From Hyphococcus flavus (GTDB taxonomy: Bacteria > Pseudomonadota > Alphaproteobacteria > Caulobacterales > Parvularculaceae), in the NCBI RefSeq assembly GCF_028748065.1, contig NZ_CP118166.1:2681501-2745500 (forward strand): DNA of 64,000 nucleotides. The letters are read 5' to 3'. The first letter of the stretch is position 1, and every line of letters starts with the position of its first letter. This document shows positions 10,661 through 22,267 of the stretch, one piece after another. The position numbers were made by a program, and so were the translations under genes. The notes beneath the pieces are model-generated. The model saw only the letters and a list, made by a program, of their open reading frames with translations, was not told where the DNA came from and searched no databases.

Positions 10661-10668
10661 TCTCGTCA

Positions 10669-10792
10669 ACTCATCAAGACCAGCCGAGGGATAGGCCCGT
10701 TGACGCTGGGGCAACCGTCAGGAAATCAGACCGGTTTTCTGGAAAGGTGCCAATTCCTACGAGACAAGGGTTTCTTTTCTCGAGAGATGGGT
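10669..10792 (+). ncRNA. SAM-I (S-box) riboswitch aptamer
   Basis: Matches the S-box consensus in order. P1 5' strand ACTCATC (10669-10675) pairs with GATGGGT (10786-10792). Then CAAGA; a P2 helix from CCAGC (10680) to GCTGG (10705); the inner GAGGGATAGGCCC; the hallmark GGGGCAACC; a P3 stem-loop (TCAGGAAA pairing with TTTTCTGGA); AAGGTGCCAATTCCTAC; and a P4 stem (GAGACAAGG...CTCGAGAG region). It precedes metX by about 110 bases. SAM-I aptamers bind S-adenosylmethionine and repress methionine genes. I judged this by eye; a covariance-model search against RF00162 would be decisive. Confidence 0.88.
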
Positions 10793-10824
10793 CGGACGAA
10801 GAACGAGGCTATGCTCGTCCGATG
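10792..10824 (+). promoter_or_regulatory. Expression-platform hairpin of the SAM-I riboswitch
   Basis: TCGGACGA (10792-10799) can pair with TCGTCCGA (10817-10824). Its first base is shared with P1. A competing inner hairpin ACGAG/CTCGT exists in the loop. No U-run follows, so this is not a standard intrinsic terminator; control by Rho or at translation is more likely, though the metX start is about 80 bases further on. Confidence 0.4.
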
Positions 10825-10903: not shown

Positions 10904-11899
10904 ATGGCAAGCGCGCAAATCGAGACGGAAGAAACGGTTCTTCGCAAAACGGTGCTCTATAGCGAAGTCAGCATTTTTCTGCCCGGCGATATTGAACTCG
11001 ACAGCGGCGAAACGTTGTCGAAACCGGAGCTCAGCGTACGCATTTACGGTGACCTTACTCAGCCTGTCGTTGCGGCGGCGGGCGGCGTTTCCTCTGGGCG
11101 GATCATTGCCGATACCAGTGAAGACCGCGGCTGGTGGCAGGAGTTTGTGTCGGCTGGCGGCGCCATCAATCTCGATGAATATTGCGTCATCGGTTTTGAT
11201 TTTCTGCCCAATCCCGGCGAGGCGGCGCGCACCATTTCAACTGCGGATCAGGCGCGTGCATTCGCCCATGCCCTCGACATCATCGGCGTTGAAAAGCTTT
11301 ACGCCTTTGCCGGCGCTTCCTATGGCGGCATGGTCGGGCTGAAATTTGCCGAATTGTTCCCCGAACGGATTGAAAAGCTCATCGCCATATCGGCACCTGA
11401 CCGTCCGCACCCGGCGGCAACGGCGCAGCGGGGAGTGCAGCGCCGGATCATCCAGTTCGCCAATGACTGCGGCAGGCCGGAGGAGGGCGTGTCGCTCGCC
11501 CGCCAGCTCGCCATGGTGTCTTACCGCACGCCGGAAGAGTTCGAACAACGTTTCGCGAGCAACGCATACGGCGAGGCCGCGGGCGCGCCTTACGATATTT
11601 GCGAATATCTGATCGCGCGGGGCGAGGCGTATGACGTGAGTGCCGAGCGATACCTGACGCTTTCCGATTCCATCGACCGTCATCGCGCCGATCCGGCAAA
11701 AATTAAGGCCGACACGCTTGTCATTGCGGCAACCAGTGACCGTCTGTCGCCGCCTGCGGATTTGAAACGATTAGCCGGTGTGATCGACGCGGCGCGGTTT
11801 GTCGAAATTCCATCCCTTTTTGGTCATGACGCCTTTTTGAAAGAGCCCGGCGCCATTGGCCCCCACATCAAAGAATTCCTAAAAGGAGCCAAGTCATGA
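10904..11899 (+). CDS. metX: Homoserine O-acyltransferase (MetX-like)
   Basis: Alpha/beta-hydrolase enzyme, 331 aa, activating homoserine by O-acetylation or O-succinylation, the first dedicated step to methionine. Catalytic triad visible: nucleophile Ser139 in GASYGGM, Asp279 in ATSDRLSPP, His308 in FGHDAF. It is shorter than the common 370-residue MetX and resembles the compact type I recall from Xanthomonas-like bacteria; the acyl donor cannot be decided from sequence. It is the first gene behind the SAM-I riboswitch, and its stop overlaps the metB start (ATGA). The surrounding metB and hom genes confirm the pathway. Confidence 0.88.
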   Translation: MASAQIETEETVLRKTVLYSEVSIFLPGDIELDSGETLSKPELSVRIYGDLTQPVVAAAGGVSSGRIIADTSEDRGWWQEFVSAGGAINLDEYCVIGFDFLPNPGEAARTISTADQARAFAHALDIIGVEKLYAFAGASYGGMVGLKFAELFPERIEKLIAISAPDRPHPAATAQRGVQRRIIQFANDCGRPEEGVSLARQLAMVSYRTPEEFEQRFASNAYGEAAGAPYDICEYLIARGEAYDVSAERYLTLSDSIDRHRADPAKIKADTLVIAATSDRLSPPADLKRLAGVIDAARFVEIPSLFGHDAFLKEPGAIGPHIKEFLKGAKS

Positions 11900-13107
11900 G
11901 TGAGTCATTCCGTCCGGAAACCATTATCGCGGGCGCAGGCGTCGCCGACGATCCGGCGTTCAACTCCGTTGCGCCGCCGTTGCATTTGTCTGCAACATAC
12001 GGCTGGAACGATCCGCTTGAAAAGCCGCAATATGATTATGCGCGTTCGGGCAACCCGACACGCACGCAACTGGAAAACGCGTTGGCCCAGCTTGAGGGCG
12101 GCGCGCGCGGCGTTGTGGTTTCTTCCGGTATGGCGGCGCTTGATCTTGCGCTGAACCTCGTCAATCCGGGCGAGCTCGTGCTGGCGCCGCATGATTGTTA
12201 CGGCGGCACGCACCGCCTGCTAACGGCGCGCGCCAAACGCGGGCATTTCGAGCTGGCCTTTGCGAACCAGACCAGTGCTGTTGAGCTGAAAAACGCGTTT
12301 GCGATGAAGCCTAAGCTGGTGTTGATCGAAACGCCGTCAAACCCGCTTTTGCGAATTACCGATATTCGCGGCATTGTCGCGCTCGCAAGGGAATGCGGTG
12401 CCATCACTGTCGCTGACAACACATTCCTGTCGCCGGCCTTGCAACAACCGCTGGCGCTTGGCTGTGACGTGGTTGTTCATTCGACAACGAAATTCATTAA
12501 CGGCCATTCGGATGTGGTTGGCGGTGCAGTCATCGCCAGGGAACAGGCGCTCGGTGATGAGCTTGCCTGGTGGGCCAACTGTACGGGCGTCACCGGGGCG
12601 CCGTTCGATTCCTTTTTGACCTTGCGCGGGCTTCGCACGCTGTTCCCCAGGCTGGAGCGGCAACAGAAAACAGCAAACGACGTCGTATCGGCGCTTGCTG
12701 CTGATGAAAGAGTATCGCGCGTTTACTATCCCGGGCTCGAAAGCCATCCCGGGCATGAAGTCGCCAAAGCGCAACAGGCCGGGTTCGGGGCCATGTTCAG
12801 CGTGGAATTCGCTGAGGGCGTCGATGTGATCAAGCTTTTACGGCATCTGAACATTTTCACGATAGCAGAGTCCCTTGGCGGGTTTGAAAGCCTGGTGTGT
12901 ACGCCGGCGACAATGACCCATGCATCGATGACGCCGGAAGCGCAAAAGATCGCCGGCATTTCCGAACGGTTGGTCCGGTTTTCCATCGGGCTTGAGCATG
13001 GCGATGACTTGGTGCGAGATATACTGGCGGCGCTGGACAAGGCTGCTGGTACGGAAGAAGACAATGTGGCGTATCTGCCGGAAGGGGCGGCGAGCAAATG
13101 TGCTTAG
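11896..13107 (+). CDS. metB: Cystathionine gamma-synthase / O-acylhomoserine lyase
   Basis: PLP enzyme of the Cys/Met metabolism family, 403 aa. It joins the acyl-homoserine made by MetX to cysteine (or sulfide). Visible marks are YARSGNPTR, the SSGMAALDLAL segment, ETPSNP, VADNTFLSP and the PLP lysine Lys199 in HSTTKFINGHSDVVGG; the C-terminal SLGGFESLVCTPATMTHA is typical. Whether it works as MetB with cysteine or as a MetZ/MetY-type sulfhydrylase is not settled by motif. Start overlaps the metX stop by four bases, and hom starts inside its last codons, so the three are translationally coupled. Confidence 0.9.
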   Translation: MSESFRPETIIAGAGVADDPAFNSVAPPLHLSATYGWNDPLEKPQYDYARSGNPTRTQLENALAQLEGGARGVVVSSGMAALDLALNLVNPGELVLAPHDCYGGTHRLLTARAKRGHFELAFANQTSAVELKNAFAMKPKLVLIETPSNPLLRITDIRGIVALARECGAITVADNTFLSPALQQPLALGCDVVVHSTTKFINGHSDVVGGAVIAREQALGDELAWWANCTGVTGAPFDSFLTLRGLRTLFPRLERQQKTANDVVSALAADERVSRVYYPGLESHPGHEVAKAQQAGFGAMFSVEFAEGVDVIKLLRHLNIFTIAESLGGFESLVCTPATMTHASMTPEAQKIAGISERLVRFSIGLEHGDDLVRDILAALDKAAGTEEDNVAYLPEGAASKCA

Positions 13108-15308: not shown

Positions 15309-16592
15309 ATGACCGAGGCGTTTTCTGCATATAGCTCTTTGACGGCATACATGAACGCGATTGGCGTGCGGGCGAAAGGCGCCGCGCGGGCGATGGCGTC
15401 TGCTCCGGGAAGTAAAAAAAACGAAGCGCTAAAATTAGCTGCTGCAAGTATTCGCGATCGCTCAGATCAAATCCTAGACATCAATGCGAATGAACTTGCT
15501 GTCGCGAAAGAAAAAAACGTAACTGACGCCTTTCTTGATCGTATGATGCTTAATGGCGATCGGATTGAGGGGATTGCTAACACTCTCGAAGACGTCGCCG
15601 CGCTTGATGACCCGGTCGGCAAAGTCATTTCAAAATGGACGCGCCCCAATGGCCTGGAAATCGAACGAGTCAGAACGCCTATAGGCGTCATGGCCGTAAT
15701 CTATGAAAGCCGGCCCAATGTAACGGTGGACGCTGCGGCGATTGCCGTAAAAGGTGGCAATGCCGTCATCCTGCGCGGCGGCTCGGAATGTATTGAAACC
15801 AACAAGGCTTTGTTCGGATGTTTCTCCGGCGCACTCGTGAAAGCCGGTTTATCTGAAAACGCTGTTCAGTTTGTAGAAACGCCTGACCGTGACGCGGTGG
15901 GCGCACTGCTTTCGGGGATCGACGGGAACGTCGATCTTGTTATTCCGCGCGGCGGCAAGTCGCTGGTGGCGCGGGTGCAGTCGGATGCGCGCGTGCCGGT
16001 GCTCTCTCATCTTGACGGCATCTGTCATGTCTATGTTGATCGCGATACCGATCCGCGAAAAGCTGTCGACATCGTCGTTAATTCCAAGATGCGGCGGACG
16101 GGCGTTTGCGGCGCAGCGGAAACGCTGCTGATCGACGCGGCGATCGCAAACGAAATTTGGCCCGCTATCGCGCAAGCCTTGCGAGATAAGGGATGCGAAA
16201 TACGCGGCGATGCGAATATCCGGAAACTGGATGCGTCTGTTGCCGCCGCGTCAGAAGAAGATTGGCGAACGGAGTATCTGGCGCCGATCCTTTCCGTCGC
16301 CGTCGTGGACGGCGTGACAGGGGCCATCGGACATATCGCCAATTATTCTTCAGGGCATACGGAATCCATTGTCACGGAAAACTTTGTTACGGCTGAAACG
16401 TTCATCAACGGCGTCGACAGCGCCATCGTGCTGCATAACGCTTCCACTCAGTTCGCGGACGGCGGGGAGTTTGGGCTCGGCGCTGAAATCGGCATCGCCA
16501 CGGGACGTCTTCACGCGCGCGGACCGGTAGGCGTTGAAGAACTGACTACATACAAGAATGTTGTGCGTGGCACAGGGCAGATCAGGCCTTAG
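15309..16592 (+). CDS. proA: Gamma-glutamyl phosphate reductase
   Basis: Second proline enzyme: NADPH reduction of gamma-glutamyl phosphate to glutamate semialdehyde. 427 aa, full length. Aldehyde-dehydrogenase-like motifs are clear: RTPIGVMAVIYESRPNVTVDAA, KGGNAVILRGGSE, the catalytic cysteine in RRTGVCGAAETLLID, and the C-terminal FGLGAEIGIATGRLHARGPVG. Its ATG follows the proB TAG directly with no spacer. No intrinsic terminator is visible in the 140 bases after its stop, before the ilv leader. Confidence 0.96.
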   Translation: MTEAFSAYSSLTAYMNAIGVRAKGAARAMASAPGSKKNEALKLAAASIRDRSDQILDINANELAVAKEKNVTDAFLDRMMLNGDRIEGIANTLEDVAALDDPVGKVISKWTRPNGLEIERVRTPIGVMAVIYESRPNVTVDAAAIAVKGGNAVILRGGSECIETNKALFGCFSGALVKAGLSENAVQFVETPDRDAVGALLSGIDGNVDLVIPRGGKSLVARVQSDARVPVLSHLDGICHVYVDRDTDPRKAVDIVVNSKMRRTGVCGAAETLLIDAAIANEIWPAIAQALRDKGCEIRGDANIRKLDASVAAASEEDWRTEYLAPILSVAVVDGVTGAIGHIANYSSGHTESIVTENFVTAETFINGVDSAIVLHNASTQFADGGEFGLGAEIGIATGRLHARGPVGVEELTTYKNVVRGTGQIRP

Positions 16593-16733
16593 CATAATCT
16601 GCTACTCAAATGTGCGCGGCGTGCGCTTCAAAAGAAAATTTCGACAAAACGGGCATTTTTTGCTTGTTTGTTAACGACTTCCTGTTGTAAGCGGTTTTCT
16701 GCGCTGCAACACAAGGCGCGTTTGGGGAAAACA

Positions 16734-16877
16734 ATGAGCGGGTTCATGGGAACGGTAACCACGGGAGAAGGCGCGAGTTTGGTCGCGAACCCTGTGGTGC
16801 TGTTTATGAGCCTGATTGTGGTGGTGGTACTCCTTATTAGCCCCTTCCGGGGAGCGGCCATGGAGCCCGCGCGCTAA
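16734..16877 (+). CDS. ilvL: ilv operon leader peptide (attenuation)
   Basis: Short frame before ilvD. From the ATG at 16734, behind TTTGGGGAAAA, it encodes 47 aa; an internal ATG at 16806 would give a 23-residue peptide. Codons 16812-16838 are nine branched-chain residues in a row, LIVVVVLLI, followed by SPFRGAAMEPAR. The ending is strikingly like E. coli IlvL as I recall it (VVVIII, PP, CGAAL). It is followed by a rho-independent terminator and then ilvD. Shortage of charged Leu/Ile/Val tRNA should stall ribosomes on this run. A small membrane protein is the alternative reading, but position and RNA pairings argue for a leader. Confidence 0.8.
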   Translation: MSGFMGTVTTGEGASLVANPVVLFMSLIVVVVLLISPFRGAAMEPAR

Positions 16878-16903
16878 AGCAACAGCAGCACGGACCTTCA
16901 GAC

Positions 16904-16932
16904 ACCCGCTCCCGAAAGGAAGCGGGTTTTTT
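16904..16932 (+). terminator. ilv attenuator (terminator with competing antiterminator)
   Basis: ACCCGCTCC (16904-16912), loop, GGAAGCGGGT (16918-16927), then a run of six T. It is 26 bases past the leader stop and 33 bases before the ilvD start. The terminator's 5' arm can instead pair with GGGAGCGG (16850-16857) through CCGCTCCC (16906-16913), an eight-pair antiterminator. That segment is itself part of a CCCC-TTCC-GGGG hairpin (16841-16852), which a ribosome stalled on the Leu/Ile/Val codons just upstream would open. All three classical attenuation states are therefore present. Confidence 0.85.
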
Positions 16933-16964
16933 CATGTCTGATGGTCCGTTCAAGGATAGAACGG

Positions 16965-18653
16965 ATGACGGAAGAAAAGCAAAAACGATCAGATGCGATC
17001 ACCAAGGGGCCGGCGCGCGCCCCGGCGCGGGCTATGCTGCGCGCAACGGGGCTTGGTGATGAAGATCTGGCGAAGCCGATGATTGCGGTGGTCAACACCT
17101 GGTCGACGGTGACGCCATGCAACATGCATCTCGATAAACTGGCGGCGCCAGTGCGCGAAGGCGTCAGAAAAGGCGGCGGCACGCCGGTTGATTTCAATAC
17201 TATCGTTGTTTCCGACGGCATCACTATGGGCGGCGAGGGAATGCGCGCCTCCCTGATCTCGCGTGAGGTGATTGCTGACTCTATTGAACTCGCCGTGCGC
17301 GGACATTCGCTCGATGCGGCTGTAATTCTCGTTGGTTGCGACAAGACATTACCGGCAGCGGCGATGGCGCTGGCGCGCATGGATATTCCCGGCGTTATTT
17401 TCTACGGCGGCACCATCATGCCGGGACACTGTAAATTTCGCGGCGAGGAAAAAGACCTTTCCATCCAGGATGTGTTCGAAGCGGTCGGCGCGCATGCCAA
17501 GGGCGATTATTCCGACGCGGAGCTGGACCAGATCGAGCGCGCGGCCTGCCCAGGCGCCGGCGCTTGCGGCGGTCAGTTTACGGCGAACACCATGGCCATG
17601 GCGCTGGCGTTTTTAGGGCTTGCGCCCATGGGCGCCGGCGATCCGCCAGCGACGGATGAAGCGAAAGCAGCCGAAGGCGCGCGCTGTGGCGAGTTAGCGG
17701 CGAAGCTCGCCCATGAAGGCAAAACCGCACGAACATTCGTCACCGAAGCGAGTTTGAAAAACGCAGCGACATCGGTCGTCGCCAGCGGCGGATCGACCAA
17801 CGCAGTGCTGCATCTCGCTGCAATAGCAGCGGAAGCTGGCGTTCCGTTCTCCATCGACCTGTTTGATGAATTATCAAGGTCAACGCCAGTCATTCTTGAT
17901 ATCAAACCGGGCGGGAAGTTTCTTGCTAAAGATTTGTACGAAGCGGGCGGCGTTCGCCTGTTTGGCAAGCGACTGATGGAAGGCGGCGCTCTGTTTGAAA
18001 CGCCAACGGTTAGTGGCGCGACAATGTTTGAGGAATTGGCGAAGGCGGACGAAACGCCCGGCCAACAGGTGGTTCGCTCCGTAGACGATCCAATAAAGAA
18101 AACCGGCGGGTTGCGCATTCTCTATGGCGATGTGGCGCCGGAAGGCAGCGTTCTCAAAACCGCGGGTTACGCTGACGCCGCATTCGAAGGGCCGGCGCGG
18201 GTTTTCGAAAGCGAGGAGGAGGCGTTTGCTGCGGTTTCTGATCGCAACATCAAGGAAGGCGACGTCGTCGTTATCCGTTATGAAGGACCGAAAGGCGGTC
18301 CGGGCATGCGTGAAATGCTTGCCGTCACCGCCGCACTCGCCGGTCAGGGATTAGCCGGCAAAGTCGCGCTGATGACGGATGGCCGGTTTTCCGGCGCATC
18401 GCACGGTTTCGTTATCGGCCATGTGGCGCCCGAAGCCGCCGCCGCCGGCCCAATCGCGCTTATCGAAGAAGGCGACATCATTCGTATTGACGCAGAAGCA
18501 CGCCGGATTGACGCCGACATCAATTGGGCGGCGCGCAAGGCTGCATTCAAGCCAAAGGCGCCAAACCGCATGGGCGGCGCATTCGACAAATTCGCAAAAC
18601 TCGTTTCATCGGCGTCGAAAGGCGCCGTCACCATTCAACCGCTGAACGACTGA
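16965..18653 (+). CDS. ilvD: Dihydroxy-acid dehydratase
   Basis: Third common step of valine/isoleucine synthesis; an iron-sulfur dehydratase of the IlvD/Edd family, 562 aa. The start is set at 16965 because AAGGA at 16952-16956 stands eight bases before it; an in-frame ATG at 16941 lies almost on the attenuator U-run. Visible motifs are [34 protein letters not shown] (cluster cysteine), [17 protein letters not shown] (another cluster cysteine) and [11 protein letters not shown]. Followed after 11 bases by ilvC. Confidence 0.95.
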
Positions 18654-18664
18654 AGGAAGTTAAA

Positions 18665-19675
18665 ATGAGAGTCTATACGGAAGATGATGCACGCCCGGAA
18701 CTGGTCAAGTCCGAACCGGTCGCCGTAATCGGTTACGGCAGTCAGGGCCGCGCCCATGCGCTGAACCTGAAAAACTCCGGCTGTGACGTGGTCGTCGGCG
18801 TGCGCGAGGGCGGGCCGGGCGCAATGCGTGCTGCTGAAGACGGTCTTGAAGTCGCTTCCGTCGCCAAGGCGTGCGAGGGCGCGAAACTGATCGCGATCCT
18901 GACGCCGGACATGACTCACGAAAAAATATTTAATGAGGAAGTCGCGCCGCATCTGAAAGCCGGTGACGCCTTGTTGTTCGCCCATGGCTTTACGGTGCTC
19001 TATGGCCGGGTGCAGCCACCAAAAGATGTTGACGTCATTATGGTTGCGCCAAAGGGGCCGGGTGACCTTGTTCGGCGTGAATATGAACGTGGTCGCGGCG
19101 TGCCGTGTCTTTTTGCTGTGCATCAGGACGCTACCGGCAACGCCAAAGACAGAGCGCTTGCCTATGCGAGCCTCATTGGCGGCGCTACCGCCGGGGCTAT
19201 CGAAACGACGTTCAAGGAAGAAACCGAAACGGATTTGTTCGGTGAACAGGCGGTTTTGTGCGGCGGCGCATCGGAACTGGTCGTCGCCGGTTTCGAAACG
19301 CTGGTTGAGGCCGGCTATCAGCCAGAAATCGCTTACTACGAATGCATGCATGAGCTGAAGCTCATCGTCGATCTCTTTTACGAGGGCGGCCTTGAAGGCA
19401 TGCACAAATTTATTTCCGAAACGGCGAAATATGGCGACTTCGTTTCCGGTCCGCGTGTAATCAATGCGGAAACCAAACAGCGCATGCGCGAAGTGCTGAC
19501 GGATATTCAGAACGGCAATTTCGCCCATGACTGGATCATGGAAAATCAGGCCGGCAAGGTTCGTTATAACCAGATGCTGGAAGCCGATCTTAATCATCCA
19601 ATCGAAAAAACGGGCAAGGAATTGCGCGCCCGAATGCCGTGGCTGAAGCACGGCGCCAATACGAAAGAGGAGTAA
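18665..19675 (+). CDS. ilvC: Ketol-acid reductoisomerase
   Basis: Class I KARI, 336 aa, converting acetolactate to 2,3-dihydroxy-isovalerate with NADPH and Mg2+. The ATG at 18665 follows GAAGGAAG with good spacing; longer frames would lie inside ilvD. The Rossmann part begins [20 protein letters not shown], then PDMTHEKIF and FAHGF. The knotted C-terminal domain is seen in the metal-ligand segments [26 protein letters not shown] and the [12 protein letters not shown] stretch. Usual length. Same operon as ilvD and ilvB. Confidence 0.96.
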
Positions 19676-19684
19676 GGAGTTCTC

Positions 19685-21481
19685 ATGTCTTCTCTGGCGG
19701 CTAAACAAACTGCGAAACCGGCTCCGGCGCTCTCAAAGCCCGGCGCCGAACTTCTGCTCGATGCGCTGGAGGAGCAGGGCGTTGAGGTGATTTTCGGCTA
19801 TCCGGGCGGTGCCGTGTTGCCGATCTATGATGCGCTTCACGCGCGTGACTCGATCCGCCATGTGCTGATGCGTCATGAACAGGGCGCCCTGCATGCGGCG
19901 GAAGGATACGCGCGCTCAACCGGCAAGGTGGGGGTGGCATTGGTTACGTCGGGTCCCGGCGCCACCAATGCGGTGACAGGCCTTGCCGATGCCCTGCTGG
20001 ATTCAATTCCGCTGGTTTGCATCACCGGTCAGGTGGCAAGGCCCTTGATCGGCACGGATGCGTTTCAGGAATGCGACACCACAGGCATCACAAGGTCATG
20101 CACGAAACATAATTATCTGGTGCAATCAGCCCAGACATTATCGAACACCGTACATGAAGCATTTCATGTTGCGCGGCGCGGCCGTCCGGGACCGGTGCTG
20201 ATCGATATTCCAAAAGACACGCAATTTGAAACGGCGCTTTATACCAGCCGCGAGAATGCAAAAAATCGCAATTGCATCGTCCTGCCAGAGCTTGACCGCA
20301 ACAAGATCGACCAGACAGTCGATCTGATGCGTCATGCACGCCGCCCTGTCTTTTACACCGGCGGCGGCGTCATCAATGCAGGTCCCGAAGCCAGTGAAAC
20401 ATTGCGGAAGCTGGCGGCCGCCACGGGGTTTCCCGTGACATCGACCCTGATGGGGCTTGGCGCGTTTCCGGCGTCAAACCCGCAATGGCTCGGCATGCTT
20501 GGCATGCATGGAAGTTTCGAGGCGAATAACGCCATGCATGACTGCGACCTGATGATCGCCATAGGCGCGCGGTTTGACGACCGCGTCACTGGCCGTATCG
20601 ACGCCTTTTCACCGAACTCACGCAAGGTCCACATCGATGTGGACCCATCATCCATAAACAAGAATGTAAACGTGGATATCGGCATTGTAGGCGATGCCGG
20701 CGAAGTCATGGAGGCGTTGCTTGCTGAATGGAACGCGCGTGAGAAACAGGAAAATTATAAAACGGCGCGCACCAACGCGTGGCGAGAGCAGATTGATGCA
20801 TGGCGCAAGCGAAAGTCGTTTCATTACGAACCTTCCAAAGAAGCGATCAAACCGCAATACGCTATCGAGCGTCTGTATCAATTGACTCGCGGGAAGGACG
20901 TCTACGTGACGACCGAAGTCGGCCAGCATCAGATGTGGGCCGCCCAGCATTTTCACTTTGATGAACCGAACCGCTGGATGACGTCAGGCGGGCTTGGCAC
21001 AATGGGCTATGGCCTTCCCGCCGCGCTCGGCGTGCAGGCGGCGTATCCGGACGCTCTCGTCATTGATATTGCTGGCGATGCTTCGGTACAGATGACCATG
21101 CAGGAAATGTCGGCGGCGGTTCAGCATGGCCTGCCTATCAAAATTTTCATTCTGAATAACGCTTATCTCGGCATGGTGCGCCAGTGGCAGGAATTGTTAC
21201 ATGGCGGTCGGTATTCCCATTCATACTCTGACAGTCTTCCTGATTTCGTGAAACTTGCTGAAGCCTATGGCGGGCAGGGTATTCGGGCTGAAACCCCCGA
21301 TGAGCTCGACGACAAAATCAGGGAAATGATTGATACGCCAAAACCGGTGTTGTTCGATTGCGTGGTGACGCAAGAAGAAAACGTATTTCCAATGATCCCA
21401 TCGGGTGCGGCGCATAACGAAATGCTATTTGGCGACGTCAAGGGCGGCGAAGTGAGCGACGCCGGAAAGGTGCTGGTATGA
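19685..21481 (+). CDS. ilvB: Acetolactate synthase, large (catalytic) subunit
   Basis: Thiamine-diphosphate enzyme, 598 aa, making acetolactate and acetohydroxybutyrate. The catalytic glutamate is in MRHEQGALHAAEGYAR, with FGYPGGAVLP upstream; FAD/regulatory contacts in the middle domain (IGARFDDRVTG), and the ThDP motif DIAGDASVQMTMQEMSA near the C-terminus. Full length. An AAGGAG ribosome site spans the gap after ilvC. Its stop overlaps the start of the small subunit by four bases, the usual arrangement for matched synthesis of both subunits. The symbol ilvI would be equally acceptable. Confidence 0.96.
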   Translation: MSSLAAKQTAKPAPALSKPGAELLLDALEEQGVEVIFGYPGGAVLPIYDALHARDSIRHVLMRHEQGALHAAEGYARSTGKVGVALVTSGPGATNAVTGLADALLDSIPLVCITGQVARPLIGTDAFQECDTTGITRSCTKHNYLVQSAQTLSNTVHEAFHVARRGRPGPVLIDIPKDTQFETALYTSRENAKNRNCIVLPELDRNKIDQTVDLMRHARRPVFYTGGGVINAGPEASETLRKLAAATGFPVTSTLMGLGAFPASNPQWLGMLGMHGSFEANNAMHDCDLMIAIGARFDDRVTGRIDAFSPNSRKVHIDVDPSSINKNVNVDIGIVGDAGEVMEALLAEWNAREKQENYKTARTNAWREQIDAWRKRKSFHYEPSKEAIKPQYAIERLYQLTRGKDVYVTTEVGQHQMWAAQHFHFDEPNRWMTSGGLGTMGYGLPAALGVQAAYPDALVIDIAGDASVQMTMQEMSAAVQHGLPIKIFILNNAYLGMVRQWQELLHGGRYSHSYSDSLPDFVKLAEAYGGQGIRAETPDELDDKIREMIDTPKPVLFDCVVTQEENVFPMIPSGAAHNEMLFGDVKGGEVSDAGKVLV

Positions 21482-22044
21482 CTGCGTCTAATGTTACAAC
21501 GCCTGCGCCGTCGCAATCCGTTTATCCGGTCACGCCGGATCAGGGTGACGTGAGAGAAGCAGTGCTTGCTGTCATCGTTGATAATGAGCCGGGCGTTTTG
21601 TCTCGTGTTGTCGGACTGATTTCGGCGCGCGGATACAATATCGAAAGTCTGACGGTGGCGGAAACAGATGTCGAAAAGCATACCTCGCGCATCACAATTG
21701 TGACGCAAGGCACGCCCGCCAAAATCGAACAAATCAAGGCCCAACTTGGCCGTCTCGTGCCGGTGCGCCGCGTGATTGACGTAAGCGCAGAAAAGGACGC
21801 TCTCGAACGTGAGCTGGCGCTGATCAAAGTCGTCAGTGTTGGTGATCAACGATTGGAAGCCATGCGCGTCGCCGATATTTTTCGCGCTCGAGCTCTCGAT
21901 ACCACTCCGACATCCTTTGTGTTCGAAGTCACTGGCGCGCGAGAAAAAATCAACGCGTTTATCGATTTGATGCGGCCATTAGGTCTTTCCGAAATTTCCC
22001 GGACCGGCGTGTTGTCGATCCGTCGCGGCGTGACGGGTGATTAA
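21478..22044 (+). CDS. ilvN: Acetolactate synthase, small (regulatory) subunit
   Basis: 188 aa. An N-terminal ACT domain starts near residue 24 (EAVLAVIVDNEPGVLSRVVGLISARGYNIESL), which in this family binds valine for feedback inhibition, followed by the IlvH-type C-terminal domain (RELALIKV, then FVFEVTG and GLSEISRTGVLSIRRG). About 25 extra N-terminal residues precede the ACT domain compared with E. coli IlvH. Start overlaps the ilvB stop. A palindromic element follows 26 bases after its stop, and the leu genes come next. Confidence 0.95.
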   Translation: MTASNVTTPAPSQSVYPVTPDQGDVREAVLAVIVDNEPGVLSRVVGLISARGYNIESLTVAETDVEKHTSRITIVTQGTPAKIEQIKAQLGRLVPVRRVIDVSAEKDALERELALIKVVSVGDQRLEAMRVADIFRARALDTTPTSFVFEVTGAREKINAFIDLMRPLGLSEISRTGVLSIRRGVTGD

Positions 22045-22070
22045 TTGTGACGAATTACAGTTTTTACCCG

Positions 22071-22165
22071 CTCATCCCGGCGAAAGCCGGGATCCAGTTT
22101 AAAGAAAAAGCCGGGCTAGGCCCGTCGTTAATTGTTAGCTGGGCCCCGGCTTTTGCCGGGGTGAA
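22071..22165. repeat. Extragenic palindromic element, copy 3 (three-stem type)
   Basis: Left arm CATCCCGGCGAAAGCCGGGAT plus CCAG, a middle hairpin (GCCGGGCTAGGCCCGTC region), and right arm CTGGGCCCCGGC with GCCGGGGTGAA. The outer arms are inverted relatives of each other. Against copy 4 at 26985 the arms are swapped left for right, so the two copies lie in opposite orientation. It fills the ilvN-leuA gap. Confidence 0.82.
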
Positions 22166-22217
22166 CGGAAGAAAGTTTATTCCTGAAAACCTGCTCCTTA
22201 GCCCCGCGCGGCGTTAA
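22161..22217 (+). CDS. Possible leu leader peptide
   Basis: A GTG-started frame of 18 codons with three adjacent leucine codons (CTG CTC CTT at 22191-22199), ending SPARR and a stop. It begins on the last bases of the palindromic element, about 50 bases before leuA. The position and Leu run suggest attenuation of leuA, but the start codon is weak and the following hairpin has no U-run. Low confidence; it may be chance. Confidence 0.25.
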   Translation: MNGRKFIPENLLLSPARR

Positions 22218-22227
22218 TCGCCGCGCG
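22205..22227 (+). promoter_or_regulatory. Strong GC hairpin before leuA
   Basis: CGCGCGGCG, loop TTAAT, CGCCGCGCG: a perfect nine-pair stem whose loop holds the stop codon of the possible leader frame. It ends 40 bases before the leuA start. No T-run follows (TAACAAATG), so it is not a standard intrinsic terminator. It could be an RNA stability or attenuation stem. Confidence 0.6.
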
Positions 22228-22267
22228 TAACAAATGCGCTTTGGAACAGAGTTTAAGGAACAGAAAA

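Follow-up and report, generated by a model that had tools for sequence, protein, structure and literature searches.

Attenuation of ilv operons is a classic mechanism of gene regulation. In E. coli, the leader ilvL encodes a 32-residue peptide and precedes ilvX-ilvG. Attenuation has also been described for the Caulobacter ilvBN operon (Tarleton 1994, as cited in a passage of PMC4117421); according to that passage the pathway and the mechanism are the same as for the leader reported here, but the element precedes ilvB. An alphaproteobacterial ilvB leader and an ilvIH element (Vitreschak 2004, as cited by PMC1273637 and PMC2573895) belong to this pathway within the same bacterial class, but the first gene differs from that of our leader. 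In the relevant extracts of the Firmicutes literature, Staphylococcus aureus has an ilv attenuator, with mutations placed in the ilvD 5'UTR (PMC5794164), and Listeria has another, Rli60 (PMC5864092); these too are cis-acting, but they are combined with CodY, and we liken them to our leader by description only. The Veillonella ilvD motif, a weak riboswitch candidate in the section of PMC8632094 that covers it, is likewise a structured RNA before ilvD in a member of the Firmicutes, and is also likened by description only. Our literature search returned no recognised ilvD leader for Parvularculaceae or their kin; key older papers lie outside its coverage, and we do not claim that the leader is unpublished. 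The mechanism we propose is a known one, and for this lineage (Parvularculaceae and related families) and this position before ilvD we found no earlier description.

The window, by which we mean the whole 64-kb stretch of DNA that was analysed, has its closest named relatives in Parvularcula, Aquisalinus and Marinicaulis records. The ilv operon lies on the + strand and its genes were identified with NCBIfam profiles: ilvD, the first structural gene (dihydroxy-acid dehydratase, 16965-18653, above the cut-offs of TIGR00110 and NF002068), ilvC (ketol-acid reductoisomerase, 18665-19675), ilvB (acetolactate synthase large subunit, 19685-21481) and ilvN (acetolactate synthase small subunit, 21478-22044), followed by leuA and leuC. 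The mechanical open reading frame of ilvD opens at 16941, and we infer that translation starts at 16965. The 223-nt gap between ilvN and leuA (22045-22267) contains repeat-like hairpins, CCCGGCGAAAGCCGGG and CCCCGGCTTTTGCCGGGG, and inspection of it for a leader found no obvious one, so leuA may be transcribed separately from ilvDCBN.

Between proA and ilvD is a leader open reading frame of 47 codons plus stop (MSGFMGTVTTGEGASLVANPVVLFMSLIVVVVLLISPFRGAAMEPAR; 16734-16877, +), with its ATG at 16734 and TAA at 16875-16877. An initial sequence-only reading had proposed that this leader carries the unbroken run LIVVVVLLI, an intrinsic terminator and an alternative eight-pair antiterminator, and we found each of them in place. 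Read base by base, the run (16812-16838, +) is CTG ATT GTG GTG GTG GTA CTC CTT ATT. It is longer than expected by chance and is the only one of its length in the window: the window has one Leu/Ile/Val run of nine codons and two of seven, and in 200 first-order Markov copies of the window, counting both strands, runs of at least nine codons occurred at a mean of 0.005 per copy. The terminator (16904-16932, +) has a stem at 16904-16927 and T's up to 16932, and none of 200 shuffled sequences equalled the folding energy of 16900-16933 (-15.6 kcal/mol). A simple terminator scan with a loop limit of 8 did not list 16904-16927, because the stem has an internal mismatch, and without the mismatch the loop is longer than 8. 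The 5' arm of the terminator (segment 3, CCGCTCCC, 16906-16913; the 3' arm is segment 4) can instead form eight pairs with segment 2 (GGGAGCGG, 16850-16857, +), the 5' arm of the antiterminator, and the fold predicts an inner extension of this helix (UGGAG:CUUCA and CCG:CGG, 16861-16900, +). The region 16850-16914 folds at -31.8 kcal/mol (z -4.4), again with 0/200 shuffles equal. No Rfam family (leaders, riboswitches, T-box) reached its gathering score at the leader; the best sub-threshold match was Trp_leader, at 15.5 bits against 41.

We propose that this leader controls transcription by ribosome-mediated attenuation, in the manner of E. coli ilvL, and senses the charging of Leu-, Ile- and Val-tRNA, a reading to which we give a probability of about 0.93. 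RNA polymerase would transcribe the 47-codon leader with a ribosome translating behind it. When all three charged tRNAs are plentiful, the ribosome would clear the nine-codon run and cover segment 2, leaving segment 3 to pair with segment 4, so that the terminator forms and transcription ends before ilvD. If the supply of any one of them runs low, the ribosome would stall in the run and segment 2 would stay free to pair with segment 3 before segment 4 exists; no terminator would form, and ilvD-ilvC-ilvB-ilvN would be transcribed. Leader translation, termination and the starvation response are what we infer; the elements are those just described, and we observe their conservation, the covariation of both helices and a computed switch as set out below.

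In both this leader and E. coli ilvL, 12 residues separate the end of the branched-chain run from the stop codon, segment 2 pairs with the 5' arm of the terminator before segment 4 is made, and the terminator contains CCGAAAGG. They differ in the length of the peptide (32 residues in E. coli, 47 in the window) and in the genes that follow, ilvX-ilvG in one and ilvD-ilvC-ilvB-ilvN in the other. They differ also in the upstream hairpin, which folds in E. coli ilvL but is doubtful here. The sequence-only reading had included such a hairpin at 16841-16852 (+, segments 1:2), and its four CCCC/GGGG pairs are indeed able to form (-5.7 kcal/mol). It is not prominent in folding (z +1.0 for 16836-16880), however, and although 79.8% of its alignment cells are paired, this shows no excess over shuffles, so we dropped it as a conserved element.

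To examine conservation we gathered 110 ilvD loci, 80 of them named and 30 from relatives. Usable upstream DNA was available for 107 (lacking for 3), and removal of 7 duplicates left 100 distinct loci. A leader open reading frame dense in Ile, Leu and Val, ending 40-160 nt before ilvD, is present in 87 of the 100, compared to 22/1000 in shuffled upstream DNA and 18/100 on the reverse strand, so the codon run is kept in relatives, as the sequence-only reading would have it. The 13 loci that are leaderless comprise seven from Rhodanobacteraceae, which have the gene order ilvD-ilvC-ilvB, and six with a diverged type of ilvD. Terminators were scanned in 85 of the 87 leader-bearing loci, with a few placed wrongly, and taken locus by locus the antiterminator is matched by at most 5/100 shuffles in only 45 of the 85.

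The composition of the runs is distinctive. In the densest 12-residue windows of the leaders, Phe and Met make up only 12 of 837 Phe/Met/Ile/Leu/Val residues (1.4%), compared to 8.3% in 22 Ile/Leu/Val-dense windows of the window's long open reading frames and 22.8% in 39 long open reading frames. Conservation within the run falls on the second codon position (alignment A1, described below), and both features are as expected under selection for branched-chain codons. Codon choice is skewed too: in 22 Parvularculaceae-type leaders, CTG accounts for 4/102 Leu codons, compared to 32% in eight window genes, and ATT for 24/28 Ile codons, compared to 33%. Since Leu makes up 454 of the 825 Ile/Leu/Val residues in the runs taken together and is the most frequent of them, a true attenuator that mainly senses one amino acid, leucine, instead of three has to be considered. 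In the window itself the run has Val four times, Leu three times and Ile twice, and we regard sensing mainly of leucine as unlikely, though it is the strongest of the alternatives.

Two alignments were used to analyse covariation: A1, with 26 alphaproteobacterial leaders, and A2, with 31 leaders from Alpha- and Gammaproteobacteria. In A1, 97.1% of cells are paired in the antiterminator core, 70.7% in its inner extension and 92.7% in the terminator. In A2 the antiterminator is 92.3% paired with a covariation score of 0.217 (shuffled, 0.098) and the terminator 85.7% paired with a score of 0.149 (shuffled, 0.065), and for both helices 0/500 shuffles had an equal score, although these counts are not probabilities because related sequences can beat shuffles without any structure. 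Two of the five measures showed no excess for the antiterminator (pairs and pair types with changes, equalled in 455/500 and 152/500 shuffles); for the terminator, 18/500 and 10/500 shuffles respectively reached the observed values. The clearest case is one position that changes jointly in segments 2, 3 and 4: alphaproteobacterial leaders mostly have A, U, A there, those of the Lysobacter type C, G, C, and Arenimonas L074 U, A, U, with a mismatch on the terminator side in L076. In these alignments the antiterminator and the terminator covary via their shared arm. The mutually exclusive stems proposed in the sequence-only reading are thus retained in relatives and, together with the conserved run, they support its interpretation of the locus as ribosome-mediated attenuation ahead of ilvDCBN.

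Folding calculations also indicate that the position of the stalled ribosome decides which helix forms, in keeping with that reading. We assumed a ribosome footprint in the window of 16 nt beyond the first base of the P-site codon, leaving the RNA free from 17 nt. With the P site at 16812-16833 the probability of the antiterminator is 0.87-0.99, and from 16836 onward that of the terminator is 0.98, so the boundary is the last codon of the run. When folding was computed before segment 4 is made, all 77 leaders, as well as E. coli ilvL, switched, in the sense that segment 3 pairs upstream during a stall in the run and less so at the stop codon (threshold 0.5, best of nine stalls); the difference between the two states exceeds 0.3 in 73 of the 77. 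Eight of the 85 loci (L003, L012, L032, L033, L037, L042, L046 and L089), for which the scan had picked a wrong or doubtful feature, were omitted. Because the shorter RNA of the stop state favours switching by construction, we ran a shuffle control: the observed median is 0.84 compared to 0.53 for shuffles, 75 of 77 leaders are above their own shuffled mean, and 108 of 1540 shuffles were as high as the observed switching. At full-length equilibrium 21 of the 77 leaders switch (17/20 in Parvularculaceae), and since E. coli ilvL itself fails this test, we rejected it and relied instead on folding before segment 4 is made. The fold of the ribosome-free leader varies with the assumed RNA start (antiterminator 0.98 from 16734, terminator 0.88 from a later start), and we dropped the idea that an untranslated leader defaults to antitermination because the outcome reverses with that assumption.

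From these leaders we built two covariance models: R1, from 31 sequences including E. coli, and R2, from the 26 alphaproteobacterial leaders of A1 only. R2 found E. coli ilvL, although weakly (27.2 bits, E = 0.0029 in 232,623 bases). Of the 49 further loci searched it matched 42 at the leader, and the matches beyond ilvL are 41 leaders from outside the class (12 Lysobacteraceae and 29 other genomes of the phylum); 29 of the 49 loci had been chosen using R1. At 12 ilvB loci of relatives, R2 had no match (0/12). These loci presumably correspond to the ilvBN element studied in Caulobacter, and the existence of that element (Tarleton 1994, in the part of PMC4117421 that cites it) raises the alternative that our leader is an ilvBN-type attenuator relocated to a position before ilvD. 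We consider relocation improbable: besides being missed by R2, the leaders at the 12 loci look different and are short (about 12-17 codons by eye). Seven of the 12 satisfy a loose Ile/Leu/Val criterion, and by eye the short leader-like frames before ilvB (L230-L241; for example MRNVALVIVSPPRTGEG in L230) are followed by terminator-like hairpins, so that judged in this way they look like a second, unrelated-looking type of attenuator in the same order.

At 19 of 21 Parvularculaceae-type loci there is an ATG or GTG 45-49 codons before the leader's stop; our script chose the start nearest to 47 codons, which favours that outcome. Of the other two, L010 has no start within 44-57 codons and L083 has one at 53. 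ATG is the start in 15 of 20 leaders of this type. An ATG exactly 23 codons before the stop is present in 2 of 19 loci (7 of 19 at 23-28 codons), and so of the two starts left open by the sequence-only reading the comparison favours the 47-codon one over the inner ATG. A frame of 47 codons, whose run has the length and hydrophobicity to pass for part of a membrane segment, could instead encode a small hydrophobic membrane peptide with a function of its own, with the terminator ending its message and the second pairing arising by chance. The near-absence of Phe and Met from the runs, the wide variation (by eye) of the N-terminal halves of the leaders between relatives, and the covariation of both alternative helices make this very improbable.

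Visual comparison of 20 aligned upstream regions shows a promoter-like block (TTGTT...TTAAC...TTGTAAG) ahead of the leader in most of them. The window's copy (16664-16691, +) is 43-70 nt upstream of the ATG at 16734, with TTGTTT at 16664-16669, a 16-nt spacer and TGTAAG at 16686-16691; the match to consensus is weak, and a consensus promoter scan listed nothing at the leader. proB and proA (NCBIfam) lie upstream, and since proA is on the same strand and ends at 16592, the hairpin might be the ordinary proB-proA terminator with ilvD expressed from its own constitutive promoter behind it, but this is the least probable of the alternatives: proA turned up upstream in Parvularculaceae-type loci only (several loci have little upstream DNA), proA-less loci of other families retain both leader and terminator, the promoter-like block recurs ahead of the leader, and only 32 nt separate the last T of the terminator from the start we assign to ilvD. 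A possible stem-loop (16690-16730, GCGYTGCA...TGCRGCGC), clear in several relatives, lies between this block and the start of the leader. We rejected this small hairpin as a conserved element: the window's version folds weakly (z +1.45), and covariation is slight (analysis excluding L002).

Leaders of the same design precede other operons. Among 32 hand-picked loci around R1 matches, the gene behind the leader is ilvD in 15, ilvA in 2, a ThrA-type gene (homoserine dehydrogenase with an aspartokinase-like part) in 2 and another gene in 7, with ilvC first in the fetched stretch in 6. The ilvA leaders L129 and L131 have an Ile-rich run, and the ThrA-type leaders L130, L132 and L134 have Thr and Ile codons (by eye), all with the same architecture and in the same order as the window; the Thr/Ile leader of L134 is 4.4 kb before that locus's ilvD leader. 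That the sensing residues track the pathway, Ile for ilvA and Thr/Ile for the ThrA-type gene, gives independent support to the attenuation mechanism. We found no such leader at the window's own ilvA, and R1's next match in the window's genome, behind the ilvD leader, has an E-value of 0.23. In genomes of family f3, R1 matches precede small unnamed proteins (L135, L136 and L142, with L140 and L141 similar); in the first three a second small open reading frame follows with a weak ACT-domain match, below cut-off, and in L136 a MATE transporter comes after it. Judging from this layout, loci of this kind could possibly be an unrecognised attenuated operon.

R1 matched 54 of 150 genomes of the window's order, which we take to be GTDB Caulobacterales and whose sample takes in families beyond Parvularculaceae. 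It matched 2 of 289 genomes sampled from the class, namely the window's own genome and one MAG (8% contamination) with a leader equal to that of L043, and 41 of 397 sampled from the phylum, the window's genome among them. All of these counts are lower bounds, as stricter filters lose weak matches. At the seven leaderless Rhodanobacteraceae loci R2 found nothing (0/7), nor did it at the diverged ilvD loci (0/35: 29 of the class, 6 of the order), and 8 of the 29 diverged class loci have an Ile/Leu/Val-dense upstream open reading frame by a looser criterion. The analysis adds a well-supported attenuator for Parvularculaceae and related families. It is absent from the diverged ilvD loci that were sampled in the rest of the class, and it differs from the short leaders that relatives have before ilvB.

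The leader accompanies an ilvD-ilvC-ilvB-type operon that Lysobacteraceae also have. IlvD of the window shares 58-62% identity with proteins from Lysobacteraceae and Rhodanobacteraceae, and at most 53% with others among the matches listed from the class sample. In a tree of 84 chosen IlvD proteins (quick method, one short row dropped), 44 leader-bearing proteins and the 7 from Rhodanobacteraceae fall on one side of a long branch and all 33 diverged proteins on the other; the tree is midpoint-rooted, so its root decides nothing. The IlvD proteins of two Sphingomonadales, L008 (a Citromicrobium MAG) and L012 (Novosphingopyxis baekryungensis), are nested within Parvularculaceae (enclosing supports 92 and 87), and both loci have Ile/Leu/Val-dense open reading frames upstream of ilvD, which together suggest that in these two the operon was transferred together with its leader.

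Tentatively, and at somewhat less than even odds, we suggest that an ilvL-class leader and an ilvD-ilvC-ilvB-type operon passed together between Gammaproteobacteria (Lysobacteraceae and their relatives) and the ancestor of the order to which the window belongs, with a later move into the two Sphingomonadales. Other Alphaproteobacteria would have kept a diverged, leaderless ilvD, some with a different attenuator at ilvB, and re-coding within the order for ilvA (Ile) and thrA (Thr/Ile) would have made a small regulon from one RNA design. Another reading is ancient duplication and loss. If the transfer is real, a regulatory RNA that needs transcription-translation coupling works in two classes, and the re-coded ilvA and thrA leaders are natural experiments on the codons that set the signal.

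Elsewhere in the window, a SAM-I (S-box) riboswitch lies at 10668-10793 (+; 75.6 bits against a gathering score of 44.4), with a cystathionine gamma-synthase-like gene downstream at 11896-13107. SAM-I riboswitches are unusual in Alphaproteobacteria.
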